A DNA stretch of 20,559 nt from Spirogloea muscicola. Taxonomy: Eukaryota > Streptophyta > Zygnematophyceae > Spirogloeales > Spirogloeaceae. Below the pieces are notes generated by a model. That model was not told the DNA's origin. It did no database searches and saw only the letters and a program-made list of their open reading frames with translations. Shown here piece after piece: positions 4,199-19,600 of this stretch. The stretch covers positions 444,214-464,772 of the forward strand of contig WELB01000029.1 in assembly GCA_009602725.1 (NCBI GenBank), read 5' to 3'. Made by a program: the position numbers and the translations under genes. Within the stretch, counting starts at the first letter, position 1. Each line of letters starts with the position of its first letter.

Positions 4199-6485
4199 TC
4201 AAAGCAGCTTGTCTATGTCCTTCTGCAATCACAAAACACACTCACAGTGCTCCATCAGCAGGTGAGACAAGACCTTGTAAGTACTGGCAGCTCTCTGCTA
4301 CAGCATCCTGCCCCAGCAGCATCGCAACACTCTTCAAAGGTAGGGGTGACCATGTGGATGCTTCTGGATCTTTGCCTGTTGTGCAGACCAGAATTAGATG
4401 CTTCAATCTGCCCACCGTCAATCTTGGGAAGGTATTGCTCTGTCCAGTAACATACACAACACTATAGCTGCTACGCTTTGTACATCATTAGTGGGTTTCT
4501 CTATGTCCTTTCACAATACAACGACAACTTGGTGAAGGATCCTGACAATTATGACCTACCACAATTGATGAAGGTGAAGTGGTGGGAGCATAGCGTTCAA
4601 CAACATTGCCCTCCTTATCAACAAGAAACTTTCCAAAGTTCCACTTGATGCCCTCTCCAAGGATGCCCCCTCCCTTCTGCGACTTCAAGAACTTGTACAG
4701 TGGAGCCGCATTCTCTCCATTCACATCAATCTGTGAGCCATTTGTCAATCAGAATGGATCAGTCCTTGTTTTCTTCATTCTGGCAAGACAAGGAGGTTTG
4801 AGGTGTTCTCAACCTGCATCATAAGGATGTATCGACAGGTCAATCTTTGCTTGGGCGGGGGAATTTTCCGAGTCTCCATATGTGTTCTCAACCTGCTAAT
4901 CAGTCTTTGTACAGATATGTTGCGGTGGGCAGATGTATGCGCAAGGCTAGCAAAGTAGTGTTGCACAAGTCAATGACTTGTAACACCAGTGGTCCTACTG
5001 GACACAGCAACGTACTTTGCTGTGTGCTATAACTCATCATACATGACTTGCCCAATATGTTTGCAGAGACAAACACCATAGAGAGAGGTCAATTACGGAA
5101 AAGGACTTTAGGAGTTCTTGGGAGAAAGGTGCAGTTGTCGTGCTAACCTTAGCGAAGAGCGGAAACTCGGCCTTGTATCGAGAGCAAGCAAATTCTTTGA
5201 TCTCCTGTGGTCCACCAGGCTCTTGACCCCCAAATTGGTTGCATGGAAAGGCAAGAATCTCAAAATCTGCAGCACAATAATCAAGCTATCAGGTCATACA
5301 TGACAGCTGCACAGAGGGAGTGAAGGCCTACGAACAGCCAAAGTAAGAGCAGCTTGTAACTTTGGGAAAGTGATCCAAAAGCCAGGATTCTATAAAGACC
5401 AATTCGTCTTTAGTGACATCTTCCAAAGGAATGCCAAGTCTTGTTATATACTTCAGGCTGGCACAATACAAATACTATCCGCCAGAGCACAACAGATGCT
5501 TGAACAGCCCAGACCTTTGCCTTTATATTTGTTGTAGAGCTCAGTCAATTCCGTGTAGTTGCTCTTAGTCAATCCACTACAAACATGTGCTTAGAAAGTG
5601 TGTCAGCGATAAGCTCAAACTTGCTCATTGATCAACGACGTCGAATCCTCCAAGTCAGGTACTGTAAGCTCGAGCTTTAGCTATTACTGCAGATGTCGTC
5701 GTGCTTTGTTCCTTGACTAATCGAACGCATTCATTTTAAAATCACGCAGCCTACTCGTATCACACACAAGGTGGTCAATTGCAAGGGGCCTCTTTCTTGC
5801 CAGAGGCCCTGACAATTCTCTCTTATGATTTAGGTTTACGCTGCATCTCAGGGGCCTCATGTGCATATCATACCAGGCTGATGCGACATTGACAATGAGC
5901 AACACCTTGCCCTTGTAGTCACCAAGAGTCACTTCCTTGTCGTCAATGTTCTGCACGCTCAGATGACAAATCAGCTTATGCACATCTAATAACAAGGACA
6001 TGCTAGCTGGCTTAAGGCGAAGTCGATCGCACCTTCTGTGTTCCAATCAGGCCAACACAGTCTCTAAGATCAATGTACAGAATAAGTAACCGCTGGCTTC
6101 GGCAGATTCACAAGCAATTGGCTTTCAGTTGTTCCTCATTTTCCAACAAACGCGCATCATTGGCCCCGATTTGGCTCTCGGAGATCAGTAGTTCGGATTG
6201 AGATTGCGCGCGGCTGACCTTGACAGTAAACTCGTGGACCTTCTTCTCGGCGACTGCTGAGGATGACGCGCGGGCGCCAAGGCCGAACACCATCCTCTCG
6301 GCGGCGCTGCGCCGGGGTTTCGCCGCTGAGGCGGCTGGGGCCAGGAAGCACGCGGCGCCGGGGAAGAGCGCGCTGCGGCGGGCCCGGACGAGCGGCGAGG
6401 GCGGGAGGAGGGGCGCGGCGGCGGCGGCGGCGGCGGCGACAGACAATCGGACGGCGGCGGCGGCGGAGCAGCGATTGACAGCCAT
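4199..6485 (-). CDS. GPX: Plant-type glutathione peroxidase (Cys form), likely plastid-targeted
   Basis: Exons in gene order: 6485-6219, 5950-5874, 5576-5515, 5266-5148, 4730-4560, 4222-4199; 239 aa. It reduces H2O2 and lipid hydroperoxides; plant-type members use thioredoxin. Residues 1 to about 80 are Ala/Arg/Ser-rich, with an eight-Ala run and no acidic residue before E63, as in a chloroplast transit peptide. The catalytic site is complete: C115 (NVASACGLTKSNY), Q150 (FGGQEPG), W205 and N206 (IKWNF). C163 ([11 protein letters not shown]) sits at the resolving-cysteine position, 48 residues on. The C115 codon is TG|T, split by intron 2, so this is a cysteine and not a selenocysteine. The usual plant GSNEEI reads GGPQEI here. 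The start ATG lies in a CGCCATGG context. The last exon encodes only KDIDKLL plus stop, matching the family ending. It is head-to-head with the RHL1 homologue. Plastid targeting is inferred from composition. Confidence 0.93.
4490..4522 (-). other. Possible relic copy of the peroxidase last exon
   Basis: Inside the last intron (4223-4559), the minus strand reads TTGTATTGTGAAAGGACATA, resembling the acceptor and start of the true last exon, TTGTGATTGCAGAAGGACAT. The AG acceptor is absent in the relic. It may be a small internal duplication or chance. Confidence 0.3.
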
Positions 6486-6783: not shown

Positions 6784-7137
6784 TTTGGCCCTTTCGGACC
6801 TTCCCAATCTTTGGGCTGGCCTCTCACAGCTACTGCTCTTTACTTGGACGCGCGTTCTCCGCGCGCTGCACCTGCGTGCCGGCAGAGCCCTCGCTGCTGC
6901 CTCTGGCTCTGGCCACGCCACGGGACCCACTTCCAGGAGCCTAGCTTCTCTGACCTGAGGCTGCTTAGCAGGGGTTACTGAGTAATACGTAGCTGCTTTG
7001 TTTCTTGTTGTGCTTGTTTTTCTTAACGCTTCACCTGGCCCCCTTCTCGTACTTTGTTCATTCTTTATAGGGCTGGCTTTTCCAGCCCCTATTCTCAATG
7101 GGCGAGCCCTTCCTTTCTCCTCTAATTGGGGGAAGGC
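6784..7137 (+). mobile_element. Interspersed repeat, copy 1 (family not recognised)
   Basis: A GGGCTGG hairpin near 6814, then a segment encoding RAGRALAAASG (about 6876-6908), a stretch ending SDLRLLSRGY before a stop (about 6950-6981), then a segment at 7000-7120 that is inverted-repeated at 8332-8452. A second hairpin (GGGCTGGCTTTTCCAGCCC) lies at 7070-7088. Segment order matches copy 3 at 8205-8735 in the opposite orientation. It looks like a decayed copy. The family is unknown and I see no reverse transcriptase, transposase or capsid motif that would name it. Confidence 0.6.
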
Positions 7138-7189
7138 CTTGGGGTTAATAAGCTCCCCTCCGCTGTATTCTCGTGCGTAGCTGTGTGGG

Positions 7190-7560
7190 TTAATGTTTTC
7201 CACAGCCCTTGCCCCCTTTGGGAGAACCACTTCTTGTTTAGGCGCCTCTGGACCCTGTCCATTCTTCTATTTAAGAGGATTCTTCCAGTAGAGGGCGCTG
7301 GCTGTGCTTGGCCAGCCCAGACAAAGGTTAGAACAAGTTTCGAAGGGGGCCAGAAAAGCGCCAAAGCACACAGCGACTCAAGTGGCCACTGGGTGCTCAA
7401 ATTCCCTGTGAGCAGCCGCAGGTCTGAGAAAGTAGTCTCCGGGTAGCGGATTCCCTGTCTATAGCCAGAGGCTGCAGCCAAAGCGCGACCAGCACGCAGA
7501 TGCAGCGCATGTGCCATCGCCCGCTGCAGCGATACTGACAGGCGCATGCGATACACCTAA
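7190..7560 (-). mobile_element. Interspersed repeat, copy 2
   Basis: Holds a minus-oriented hairpin module near 7190-7232 (CACAGCCCTTGCCCCC), a plus-oriented module TTCTTCCAGTAGAGGGCG with GGCCAGCCCAG at 7280-7320, and then, on the minus strand, the segment encoding ALHLRAGRALAAASG and GYRQG (about 7450-7510). Hairpin modules flank the longer segment. Confidence 0.6.
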
Positions 7561-8204
7561 GCGAGGGAGTTCGCCAGCAAAAGTGGGATGATGTATGCGT
7601 ATGCAGCCTCGCAAAGCGGTCCCTATCGAAAGCTCAAAGCTTCTACTACGTTACCATTAAGAGTAGGACACTATCACAAGTTTCCACTTCCTGCAGCGCC
7701 TCGTCACTGTGGAAAGTTCCTCTTATCCTGATCCAGCTTGGCGCTACTACGTAAGACATACGGGACATGCCTGTCTGCTGAATTGTGGCATTGCAATGAC
7801 AATAAAGACGACCGTAGAGGTAGACTGGCAACAACCCTAGTGCTTGTGAGATGACCACAGATGTTAGATGTTTGAGTGCGCCATTGTCACTAGAAGGTAA
7901 CTAGCGAAATGCCAAAACATCTGACGACCAATTGTTTCTCCATTCATGACAAAAGATCCCCGTCGTCAAGAGTCTATATAGTTTACATTCGTCACTTTGC
8001 GACTTCTAGATAGCCATGATTCTGTAATCAACGTTTTGCACTACACTGTTAAATGCTCTGCTTGCCACATGCAGCAAGTGCAAATTATTGACTTGACATT
8101 TATGGAACAAGGCGAACAATCTGCAGAGCCATCTCAAAGGCGACATGGGGCCTTTGGCGCACCTCACTGTCCGCATCTCAATGACCGCATCTCAGTTGTC
8201 CAAG
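7561..8204. other. Intergenic, nothing recognised
   Basis: Moderate-GC unique-looking sequence between repeat copies. Short frames on both strands show no domain or biased composition, and no RNA gene was seen. Confidence 0.5.
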
Positions 8205-8735
8205 ATAGGGGGAGGGGATACAAGATAGGGCTGTATAAAGCCAGCCCGCAAAAGGAAACGAATCAATGGAAAGCTGCCAAGCTGCCAAGCTCGTGCAGAG
8301 CTGCCAAGACGAGCTACAGTGGCCCACTTGTAGAAAGAGAAAGGGCTCGCCCATGGAGGATAGGGGCTGGAAAAGGCCAGCCCAAAAAGGATGAACAAAG
8401 TACGAGAACGGGGCCAGGGGAAGCGCTAAGAAAAACAAGCACAAGAAGAAACTAAGAAGAATGCGGCTGCTGATATTAAAATAGCGGCTGTGAAAGCCAG
8501 CCAGATGCATACAGGTGTTCATGACGGAGCAACAGGCTAGGCAGCCAGGGCGCTCTTAGTAACCCCGTGTCAGCAGGAGGAAGTCAGATGAGCTGAGGGG
8601 AGGACGAGCAACCCCGCTGCGCAAGCCAGAGGCTGCTGCAAGGGCGCGACCAGCGCGGCGATGCAAAGCAAGCGCTTGGGAACGCTGTAGCGACATAGAC
8701 AAACGCATGCGGTAGCAGGAGACAAGACCCGAAGA
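8205..8735 (-). mobile_element. Interspersed repeat, copy 3
   Basis: Hairpin modules lie at 8222-8252, 8343-8383 (GGGCTGGAAAAGGCCAGCCC) and 8484-8502. Segment 8332-8452 is the inverted counterpart of 7000-7120, about 85-90% identical by eye. Further on, the minus strand encodes RAGRALAAASG (about 8626-8659) and MRLSMSLQR. The two long segments stand in the same order as in copy 1, with roughly 100 extra bases between them. Confidence 0.65.
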
Positions 8736-9000
8736 AACCGAGCCACCGGGAAGGGCACCCTGTTCCCGGCGCCGCTGGTCAGCTTGAGATGCCAGCAGCG
8801 AAAGTAACGAGGACCAGCGACCCCCGTAACACCCATGGATGTCCATGGCCAGGGGGGAAAAGGTATCACCCGCCGGGTGGTCCTTGTGCCCGTGCAACTT
8901 CTTCTGGTTCGGCCACCTTCACGGCATAGCCGGTCTCAGAAGTTACGGGGCCCTTCGTCCGGAAGCTGCCGGTTAGGACGACGTCCATGAGAAACTAAGC
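8736..9000. other. Intergenic, no gene seen
   Basis: No coding signal. A small palindrome, CCATGGATGTCCATGG, lies near 8833-8848. The rest is featureless to the eye. Confidence 0.4.
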
Positions 9001-9165
9001 AGCTACGAAGCACTCAGTAACCCTGCTAACAAGGAAGTGGCTCTCCCAATGGGGGCAAGGGCTGTGAGAAGCCAGCCCGAAAAGAAATGACAAGGTTCGA
9101 AGGGGCCGAACCACGAGCTAAGCAGCGACTGCGAACAGCCTCAGGTCAGAGAGACTGGGTTGTAG
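9001..9165 (-). mobile_element. Interspersed repeat, copy 4
   Basis: GCTCTCCCAATGGGGGCAAG followed by GGGCTGTGAGAAGCCAGCCC (9039-9079), then AAGGTTCGAAGGGGCC, which resembles 7326-7355. The minus-strand reading SLSDLRLF matches the SDLRLL stretch of other copies. It lies about 260 bases upstream of the RHL1 homologue start. Confidence 0.55.
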
Positions 9166-12514: not shown

Positions 12515-12783
12515 TGGCAGTCGCCGGCCAGCCCAGCTTTCTCTTCAATGTAAGGCAAATTGCTGTGCGAGGCCAGCCCAGAGGAATATACAATCAGCGC
12601 TTTCCGGCCCCTTCGGACCTTGGGCAATATTTCTGGGCTGGCTTTTCACAGCCCTCGCCCCCTTAGTTGAATGAGTTCCTTTGTCTGTCGTCTCGAGTAC
12701 ACAAGGTCTGGTAAGCAACTTGCAGCTGAAGAGAACACAGAAGTGAGCTCTTCCAAAGTGGGCGGGGGCTGTGGAAAACCAGC
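12515..12783. repeat. Cluster of hairpin repeat modules
   Basis: GGCCAGCCCAG occurs near 12524 and 12571. A minus-oriented module (GGCCCCTTCGGACCTTGGGC, then CTGGGCTGGCTTTTCACAGCCC) spans 12606-12665. A plus-oriented variant, GAGCTCTTCCAAAGTGGGCG with GGGGCTGTGGAAAACCAGC, spans 12746-12783. A further GGCCAGCCCAG lies near 12230. Confidence 0.6.
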
Positions 12784-12815
12784 GAGTGAAGAGGTAGGGA
12801 GAGAGACGCAAAGGG

Positions 12816-13310
<495 letters not shown>

Positions 13311-13315
13311 GTCCG

Positions 13316-13592
13316 CTTGCTGCTGTCTCAGACCTCAGCACTCCGTCTCCTTCAGACCTTGTCCATTCCTTTGGGCTGGCCTGTCCCAGCCACCAGTCAA
13401 TCTGGCCGCGCTTGCTTTAAACGAGACGAGTGGGAGAGGTTGGGAGGGTCTCTTGTCTGAGGGAGAGCCCCACGCCCCCTCCAGCGGCCCCTCCCCGGAC
13501 TCACCCCAACGGCTTACCGGCCACCTCGCCTCCGCCACGCTCCCCCCCCCCCCCACTGGTCCCTGTTCTATGCACCTGGCTGGCTTTTACAG
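13316..13592 (+). mobile_element. Further partial copies of the hairpin repeat
   Basis: TTTGGGCTGGCCTGTCCCAGCC lies near 13371-13392, preceded by CAGACCTTGTCCATTCC, which resembles the left part of copy 1 (6788-6830). A second GGCTGGCTTTTACAGCC lies near 13579-13595. Between them are an unrelated C-rich stretch and a homopolymer of C near 13542-13553. Confidence 0.45.
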
Positions 13593-13705
13593 CCGCTCTC
13601 TCAAGTAATAATCTGCGATATGACTATATTCTTCTTCATTGACATCAGCAGCCGCGTTCTTCGGTGGGTGCAGCAGACGTGACCTTCCCCTGCACTCCCG
13701 GAGCT

Positions 13706-13940: not shown

Positions 13941-15486
<1,546 letters not shown>

Positions 15487-16629: not shown

Positions 16630-19600
16630 TCAGCCAAACAAGTCGGGCATTTGCCTGACAGACATGAACATGTCCAACACCTGCAGCAGCAAAGGAGAGA
16701 TATATGATCTCAGAATTGAAATACACAGGTGATCTTGCCTTGCTGCAGAACCTCAAATTTTCTGCCAATTGTATAAGCAAGACCTCAATCACAAAGACTT
16801 GCAAGTGCTACACAGCAAAGCACAACTTGTTAAAGATATCAAACAAATTGCATAATTCTGCTGATGTTTCTCAGCAACGTACAACACACATAAGCCCTTT
16901 CGTGCATGATATGCTCTGACCTCGACATCAACACCTTAAGCAATAACAATCTGGTAATGACACTGTTGAGGACAGCCATTGACAATGAGATTCTCGCATT
17001 TGATACTTTTGTAGACTACTGTAATGTATTTGCAGATAGAGGAACCTTGAGGATCCTAACCTCGTCAGTCACATTGGCGCGGGCCTGTCTGTGGTTCTCA
17101 ATCATCTCAGTGAGCACGTCAATCAACCTCTTCTTTACCTCCCCTGTCAACATCCGGCCAGCACCATACTCCTGCCACGTGATAGCAGCCCAGCTTGTTC
17201 AGGCCTCAACTAATTGAACATCGTCTAAGGGCAGGATATAAATCACATTCACAATTCGATAAACGACAAATCAACGACGATCTTCGAGCATTATATTCTG
17301 GGCAGTACTAAGAGGTCGGGTTACTATGACAATTAAGTCCAAATCAAGCAAGCAGCAAGCGACAATCTATTTAGTAAGCAAGCTTTCTTTTGAACCTGCA
17401 GGAGGCCATCAAAGATTGGCAGCCTGACTAAGAAGTAAGCTCTTCCAAAGGAAGCGAGGGCTGTGAAAGGCCAGCTTGATAAGAATGGCCACGGTCCAGC
17501 TTGACCGAGCTTGCTTCTGCCCCCATCATTTATGTGTAATCAGGACCCAACAACTGTACGCAGCTCACAAATGGTGGTCTCTGCTTACCTGCTTGATATG
17601 CTCTAGCTCTGCATCATCATCAAGAAAGAATGAGAGATATTTGACTGGCACGTCCACCTGCAATACAGCCACAGACTTCAGTACGTTTCTGGAAGCCAGA
17701 GCCTAATTGTATTCCAGAAAGTTCTTCTATGATACGCTTTTGGTCAAAGAATGCGGTAGGACAATAACTAGGAGGCATGTCAGGACCTCAATATTGGCAC
17801 CCTTCTCACGGTGCTCCTCCACGGTCGCCCCCCCGCCCGAGAATGCGTACTTATTAATCTGCAGCAGCCAGGACAAAGCCTGAAGCAGCGGCTTGCCAAT
17901 CGCTGCTTACACACCAGAGGATCATGAGCTGCAACTGCAAGGTCAGCACAGGAGTATGGGGCAGACTGAAGGTCAGCACAGGAAAATGGGGCCGACTGAT
18001 TGATAACAATGATTCCTAAAACCGCCCCAAGACAAGCAGAACTGGTAAAGCCCCAGAGGTGCGAATTTGGGTTGGCACCTTCGTCTTGATCTGCTTCGCT
18101 GTGTCCGTGACATAGATAGCAGAGTTGGGATCGCTGGCCGACATCTTGCCGCTGTCACCCTGGCATGGCAGGGCTTCGTCAATTAGAACACATTTAGATT
18201 CTTGTGGCAGTGATGGTGCAGCCTACACCTAGGTACGGGATGGTCGACCATGCTTCATTGACCAATGGAGAGTCTTATCTCATTGTCCCCTATTTGACTC
18301 TTCAGGCCATATTGATCTACTGGGAAATAAGAAACTTAAGCTCAGGCAATAACCAGGGGGCTCACTTGCAGGGCAGGGAAGAAGCGACTCTCGATAAGCG
18401 CGGGCTTGTGGAAGCCGATCCGGGGTGCCACGTCGCGCGTCATCCGAAAGTAGGGATCCTGCAATGCTCTCACCCAGACAACTCGTCCAAAGTCAAGCGC
18501 AGCCCGTGTAAAACAACATTTGGAGTTGTCGCAAGAAAAAGGGAAACGCGACGTGACCTTTGTGGCCAGTGATGTCATGGCCTCAGAGATGACGTAAAGG
18601 CCAGAAAGAACAAAGCCACGGTAGGAAGAAGTGTATGACATCGCATTATATGCAACAATACATTTGGCAGTTGCTTTGCAGACGCAGTCTTCATATGCCT
18701 GCTTGCACACAGAGGCTCGCAGTCTGACCTGGTCAATGGCGCACGGTATGAGGCAACGGACGGTCTTGTTCTCGCCAAAGAGGTGGGGAAAGGAAGTCGG
18801 GAATGAGGGCGCCGCCTGAAAGAGACTCACTGCACTGTCAGCGCTGTATGATCAATGAGCAGTCTGCCAGATCAATCACGGAGCTGCCAGGCAAAGTGGG
18901 CTGGAGCACAAGGGGGGCCGCTGCACCTGAACAGGCGGGAAGCTGACTTTGCCAATGTTGTCTTCGCCGACGAAGCCGAACGTGCTGCGAGCCTGCGGAG
19001 CGTGACGGCGTTGCAGCCGGGCCCAGGCTGGGGCCCGCATGAGGCAAGCTCTCATCAGCAGCTGCGGCAGCGACAGCATTCGCGACAGTAGCACTTGCAC
19101 GAACGGGGACTAAGCAACATAGGTGAGGCTTCCCTCCCTCCCTCTACAAGTAGATCTCCCTGAGACTGTGGCGCTGTTGAGATCTATAAGCACGAGGGTT
19201 GATAAGGTGGCTCACCTGGTTCAGCGTCACGCACTTCGCAATGCGCACCATGTTCCGGTAGAACTCCCTGTACCCCATTGCGGCCGCGATCATGCTTCAG
19301 ATTGTGCATGATGAAGCTTTGCATGTAGACTGAGGAAGTGGAGAATCATGTCTTTCCTTACCGTTTGCAGCTCGGCCTGCACACACAGCAGCCAGCAATG
19401 AGGCACAGCAGACTTGAGTGTGCAACTATGGCGGCTCACCCGCCGACGTAGTCGAAGTCCGCAAAGATGAACGTGCGAGCTGGGTCGAAGCCGCAGGCAA
19501 TGATGTCACGCGCATTCTCGCGAGCGAGCCGCCGCGACTCCTCCACGCTCATGCCCTTCCAGATGCACTTCTCGTCGTCCGTCAGCTGCACCACCAGGGG

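Follow-up and report, generated by a model that had tools for sequence, protein, structure and literature searches.

A 20,559-nt stretch of the Spirogloea muscicola genome (contig WELB01000029.1, positions 444,214 to 464,772; this whole stretch is called the window) carries short repeats that encode the same peptides, and we examined their origin, which very probably lies in the 3′ ends of R2-like retrotransposons. A sequence-only reading had reported the peptide RAGRALAAASG in three copies and SGYRQG in two, and an exact position search found all of them, 1 to 2 nt away from the coordinates given earlier.

6875–6907, + strand: RAGRALAAASG, copy 1
7464–7496, − strand: RAGRALAAASG, copy 2
8625–8657, − strand: RAGRALAAASG, copy 3
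7452–7469, − strand: SGYRQG
13234–13251, + strand: SGYRQG

The three 33-nt RAGRALAAASG copies differed pairwise at 8, 8, and 5 sites. Ten columns were variable, eight at the third codon position, two at the first, and none at the second, and all 10 were silent, just as the sequence-only reading had it. None of the five other frames gave one common peptide in all three copies. In simulations, an all-silent outcome arose in 3 of 200,000 trials for 8 random changes and in 451 of 200,000 for 5 changes, figures that are uncorrected for the earlier choice of frame and segment. The peptide was only the best-conserved part of the repeats, and the window copies reached beyond it. Comparison with relatives elsewhere in the genome placed them in several families, denoted here by letters.

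6784–6833, + strand: tail-only fragment with a B/F-like hairpin
6859–7116, + strand: family A copy, 5′ truncated, with C-terminal coding sequence including peptide copy 1, stop codon at 6979–6981, and 3′ tail with hairpin; genome relatives about 94% identical
7201–7229, + strand: family B tail-only fragment
7275–7321, − strand (from a minus-strand hairpin near 7317): tail-like hairpin fragment of a further lineage
7404–7562, − strand: C-terminal coding fragment with peptide copy 2, from a lineage close to family B (80% identity over 110 nt) and family A (78% over 148 nt)
8332–8441, − strand: 3′ tail belonging to a family A copy that the next feature interrupts
8456–8993, − strand: family C copy, 5′ truncated and frameshifted, with the endonuclease end, the last helix with peptide copy 3, stop codon, and tail (95.7% identity over 541 nt to the intact element L078)
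8990–9029, − strand: piece of the interrupted family A copy, the joining of the pieces being our interpretation
9038–9131, − strand: family B tail-only copy between family A pieces (95.7% identity to B)
9129–9161, − strand: 5′-most piece of the interrupted family A copy
12606–12662, + strand: family B tail-only fragment
13230–13418, + strand: family F copy, 5′ truncated, with SGYRQG, stop codon, and tail, starting at the end of a (GA)n tract
13569–13599, + strand: family C tail-only fragment
17439–17495, − strand: B-like tail-only fragment

Five additional bases, located after the peptide and before the stop codon, broke the frame of the copy at 6859–7116 (five gap columns against L003), and no tail could be matched to the fragment at 7404–7562. 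The family C copy was bounded by a 10-bp direct repeat, CTTAGTTTCT. On the minus strand, the stretch from 9161 to 8332 appears to be one family A copy that was split twice, by the C copy at 8456–8993 and by the B tail at 9038–9131. The (GA)n tract at whose end the truncated family F copy begins was perfect and 363 bp long (12864–13226). A further tail type, with a hairpin and a CCCTCTACTGGAAG-like end, was seen at 2754–2800, 7275–7321, and 12814–12857, and no parent open reading frame (ORF) was identified for it. Neither an Rfam family nor an ARAGORN tRNA was found in the window.

The search for parent elements covered 153 Mb in 471 contigs, with loci taken by match strength and not at random. 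Several of the approximately 94% identical relatives of the first copy continued 5′ into a long open frame, and 12 of the 150 matches listed in the first protein search fell in open frames of 1,320 to 1,360 codons. Intact ORFs were recovered in three families: A (L080, 1,357 codons), C (L078, 1,434 codons), and F (L079, 1,521 codons). All three encoded C2HC-type N-terminal motifs (identified by pattern: A and F have two each and C has one), a conserved HWxW block, a reverse transcriptase with the catalytic [FY]ADD motif, a zinc knuckle, and, at the C terminus, a domain bearing the pattern R-R-x-D-L-V ... D-V-V. The Pfam zf-C2H2 match in family A was weak and under the cut-off (E = 0.056), and the reverse transcriptase domain RVT_1 was recognized in the A ORF L069 with an E value of 2.4e-16. 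When a profile of this domain was searched against the PDB, the top matches were R2 retrotransposon proteins (best E = 5.7e-11), followed by 8c8j (8.3e-4) and LINE-1 chains (0.0016 and up). The modeled fold of the C-terminal domain resembled the R2 endonuclease, a restriction-like endonuclease (RLE), and RAGRALAAASG lies where the last long helix in this predicted domain ends. The same frame thus encodes a reverse transcriptase and an R2-like endonuclease, a coding content that already refutes an ordinary host gene dispersed as a multigene family or as pseudogenes. As a separate observation, a search for the RVT_1 family yielded 30 loci; L039, the only one viewed as an ORF, was a Ty3-like long terminal repeat (LTR) element, and 9 of the 150 matches listed, L039 included, lay in open frames of exactly 1,237 codons.

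The silent differences had been taken as the mark of selection on a protein, and the parent ORFs bore this out. Differences between the family A references A1 and A2 were distributed 47/33/139 over the three codon positions in 757 codons (chi-square P = 2e-20), and the ratio of nonsynonymous to synonymous substitution rates (dN/dS) between ORFs, an estimate that the sequence-only reading had called for on genome copies, was 0.13 to 0.21 where silent sites were unsaturated. Of the codons that differed within the final 60, 24/40, 21/46, and 27/49 were silent in the coding frame, against 0 to 4 silent codons in four other frames and 16 to 21 in one antisense frame that shares third positions. This frame-specific excess, together with the 3 in 200,000 of the simulation, already refutes a simple non-coding repeat that looks coding by chance, so that this explanation, which the sequence-only reading had also set aside, has next to no probability left. 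What speaks for it is the behavior of two window copies against close relatives: the C copy differed from intact L078 by 3/5/6 changes over the codon positions, 8 of 14 being non-silent, and the F copy differed from L074 by 2/4/3, an even spread. An even spread over codon positions among genome copies had been named in advance as evidence that would overturn selection; between ORFs the third-position excess spoke for selection, and the two evenly spread window copies show that an even pattern among young copies would therefore not refute it. The A copy had a single coding difference from its relative, too few to judge spread. The copy at 7404–7562, with no close relative at hand, differed from family B by 6/1/15; 17 of these 22 changes were silent, which is what a comparison between lineages, and not within one, should give. 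These results fit best with selection that acted on the parent elements and with copies that drifted after landing; the window copies differ by silent changes because they derive from different parents.

The copies also carried the marks of retrotransposition. Direct repeats of at least 7 bp flanked 17 of 98 truncated, 3′-complete copies, whereas 200 shuffles gave 1.9 such copies on average and never more than 7. The retained lengths of these 98 copies ranged from 36 to 2,090 nt, mostly up to about 600 nt and thinly beyond, and 53 of them kept 120 nt or less. The length list was drawn from loci fetched around protein matches, a non-random sample; the references A1, A2, and A2up and matches below 88% identity or falling over 8 nt short of the end were excluded first. 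Of the 125 entries that remained, 27 were then removed for a 5′ end beyond the reference, a contig edge, an N, or duplication, and the list therefore lacks long copies of the families with short references (B, E, and F2). In another match set, 20 of 106 were dropped as gapped, too short, or lying in L009, which overlaps L008. Genome-wide, a 30-mer from the A tail occurred 6,175 times (at most two mismatches) and the hairpin pattern 5,703 times, with none for reversed controls, whereas a 30-mer from the A reverse transcriptase occurred 84 times; the conservation of the two 30-mers may differ, and their ratio is a rough guide to truncation. The dispersed host gene considered above would also show an open protein frame with selection acting between families, but copies that are 5′ truncated with a fixed 3′ tail, nested, and in part flanked by direct repeats, with a tail present thousands of times, leave it hardly any probability.

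The same abundance of short tails bears on another explanation, that the short copies are separate, non-autonomous units resembling short interspersed nuclear elements (SINEs) and borrowing the tail of a long interspersed nuclear element (LINE). The many copies of 120 nt or less and the great excess of tail over reverse transcriptase 30-mers are what such units would give. However, the lengths were spread, with no favored 5′ end apparent in a list without the copies that reach the start of a short reference, and the Rfam and ARAGORN results gave no RNA family or tRNA in the window; we consider a SINE-like origin improbable.

The 85 distinct 3′ flanks showed no consensus past position 1, where the search pattern forces a purine. 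Among 96 5′ flanks, the pyrimidine fraction was 0.66 and 0.64 at positions −1 to −4 and −5 to −8, compared with 0.49 to 0.57 farther out, perhaps from landing beside older CT-rich tails, and we draw no conclusion from it. The insertions were not at a single 28S rRNA site, and the window copies sit in other elements or in other sequence.

Several observations weigh against an R2-like origin of the repeats. The endonuclease model had a mean predicted local distance difference test (pLDDT) score of 58.5, with the peptide-bearing residues 265 to 300 below 50, and a larger model of 1,009 residues was discarded at a mean pLDDT of 37.9. A profile of the C-terminal sequence matched no R2 chain in the PDB, its sole match being a TetR regulator (E = 0.46), and Pfam and NCBIfam named no domain in the endonuclease region. 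The zinc knuckle between the reverse transcriptase and the RLE read CX1CX12HX3C in 4/4 sequences checked and departs from the CX2-3CX7-8HX4C spacing reported for RLE LINEs. No direct repeat of at least 7 bp was found at 81 of the 98 truncated copies. Finally, copy pairs within families kept a third-position share of 0.45 to 0.73 and not 0.33, so the copies were not purely neutral with respect to one another, an excess that may come from sub-lineages and from picking copies by tblastn protein match. Weighing these points against the ORF anatomy, the R2-like endonuclease fold, the selection, the 5′ truncation, and the direct repeats, we put a probability of roughly 95% on an autonomous non-LTR retrotransposon of R2-like type, present in several related families, whose 3′ ends make up the repeats. 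The decayed mobile element of the sequence-only reading is thereby upheld, while its "unknown type" gives way to an RLE-encoding non-LTR retrotransposon. The intact ORFs and the many copies with identical scores or 30-mers are at most indirect hints of current activity.

The tails shared one layout: the stop codon, about 90 to 150 nt with a hairpin near the end (GGCTGG, loop, CAGCC), a brief stretch that differs between families, and a CT tract whose length varies. In a stop-anchored list made without stem-based selection, hairpins were present in the A, B, C, E, and F tails among the rows listed. Covariation was uninformative, since the stem was nearly invariant in alignment A1, whose rows were chosen by a stem-requiring pattern that partly builds this invariance in. 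An outer stem around the hairpin is not claimed, as 901 of 1,000 and 763 of 5,000 permutations reached the observed value, the first such test having also included reverse-strand hairpins; single-sequence folding z values for this stem were −1.6 and −2.7 for A tails, −3.2 for E, −0.2 for C, −1.1 for F, and +1.45 for B.

Windowed identity also revealed mosaics among the family A ORFs (L069:1831–5100, L010:1–2271, and L080:691–4761). In the 5′ half of the ORF, L069 and L080 showed 100% identity in 13 successive windows of 150 nt, about 2 kb in all, and in the 3′ part, after a short transition, L069 and L010 were mostly 82 to 93% identical to L080. L010 (2275–2405) and L015 each combine the end of an A-type ORF with a tail of type E, as though families had exchanged tails. 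Such mosaics probably arose when templates were switched or when families recombined. More tentatively, one lineage of green-lineage RLE-type LINEs may have abandoned site-specific insertion, while its diverged families, at least five in number, retained a single short hairpin tail that serves them all as a recognition tag. Proteins could then copy RNAs of other families, and the exchange of 3′ halves and tails could give rise to new elements. This scenario is doubtful as it stands; cross-family copying with a shared tail would explain both the mosaic element and the A-type ORFs with an E-type tail.

The mechanism that we propose starts from the one long ORF with its C2HC-type zinc-finger motifs, reverse transcriptase, zinc knuckle, and RLE. 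Its protein would bind the hairpin tail of its RNA, the endonuclease would nick DNA with only a loose choice of site, and the RNA would be copied from its 3′ end by the reverse transcriptase in target-primed reverse transcription. Copying would usually halt early, leaving tail-end copies.

An unexplained peptide repeat thus becomes a named element, and the case shows that broken repeats can preserve, in their silent differences, a record of selection that acted on the parents and not on the copies. An R2-like LINE would be among the abundant repeats of a streptophyte alga, and the shared tail offers a testable case for cross-mobilization between LINE families. Elsewhere in the window, an open frame at 15076–15486 (+ strand) encoded a LIM domain (E = 7e-9) that we take to be plant-like and suggestive of a streptophyte, and a possible glutathione peroxidase exon lay at 5717–6046 (− strand; E = 2e-4, below the Pfam cut-off). 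The genome also gave 68 matches to the chlorophyll a/b-binding family, which indicate a photosynthetic eukaryote.

LINE-1, an APE-type element, moves by target-primed reverse transcription with frequent 5′ truncation and shares both with the mechanism proposed for Spirogloea. LINE-1 chains matched the Spirogloea reverse transcriptase far more weakly than R2 chains did, however, and the Spirogloea endonuclease is C-terminal and R2-like, with no APE domain shown by Pfam in the A ORF. R2 retrotransposons, known from Bombyx mori, Taeniopygia guttata, and Platysternon megacephalum, are described as inserting into 28S rRNA genes, whereas the 85 Spirogloea 3′ flanks share no target; the Spirogloea elements also differ from R2 in knuckle spacing, in direct repeats at some copies, and in a short tail that contains a hairpin and closes with a variable CT tract. 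One Zygnema genome is reported to contain mostly simple repeats, MITE, Gypsy, and Copia (PMC11096116), and the open-access literature searched held no description of RLE-type LINEs from streptophyte algae, a negative of little weight in view of that restriction. The knuckle spacing cited above comes from a description of RLE LINEs (PMC5678591). Oomycete Utopia elements carry RNase H (PMC5348765), and Pfam shows none in the Spirogloea A ORF. The RLE-encoding clades listed are CRE, R2, R4, NeSL, and HERO, of which HERO holds many non-specific families, and Utopia families combine one to three zinc fingers at the N terminus with a central reverse transcriptase and a C-terminal zinc finger and RLE (PMC4640811). 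The Spirogloea element shows no site specificity like that of R2 and is an RLE-encoding non-LTR retrotransposon of a known kind, assigned at that level and not to a clade; among HERO, NeSL, and Utopia, the domain layout of Utopia and the non-specific insertion of many HERO families are like those of the Spirogloea elements.
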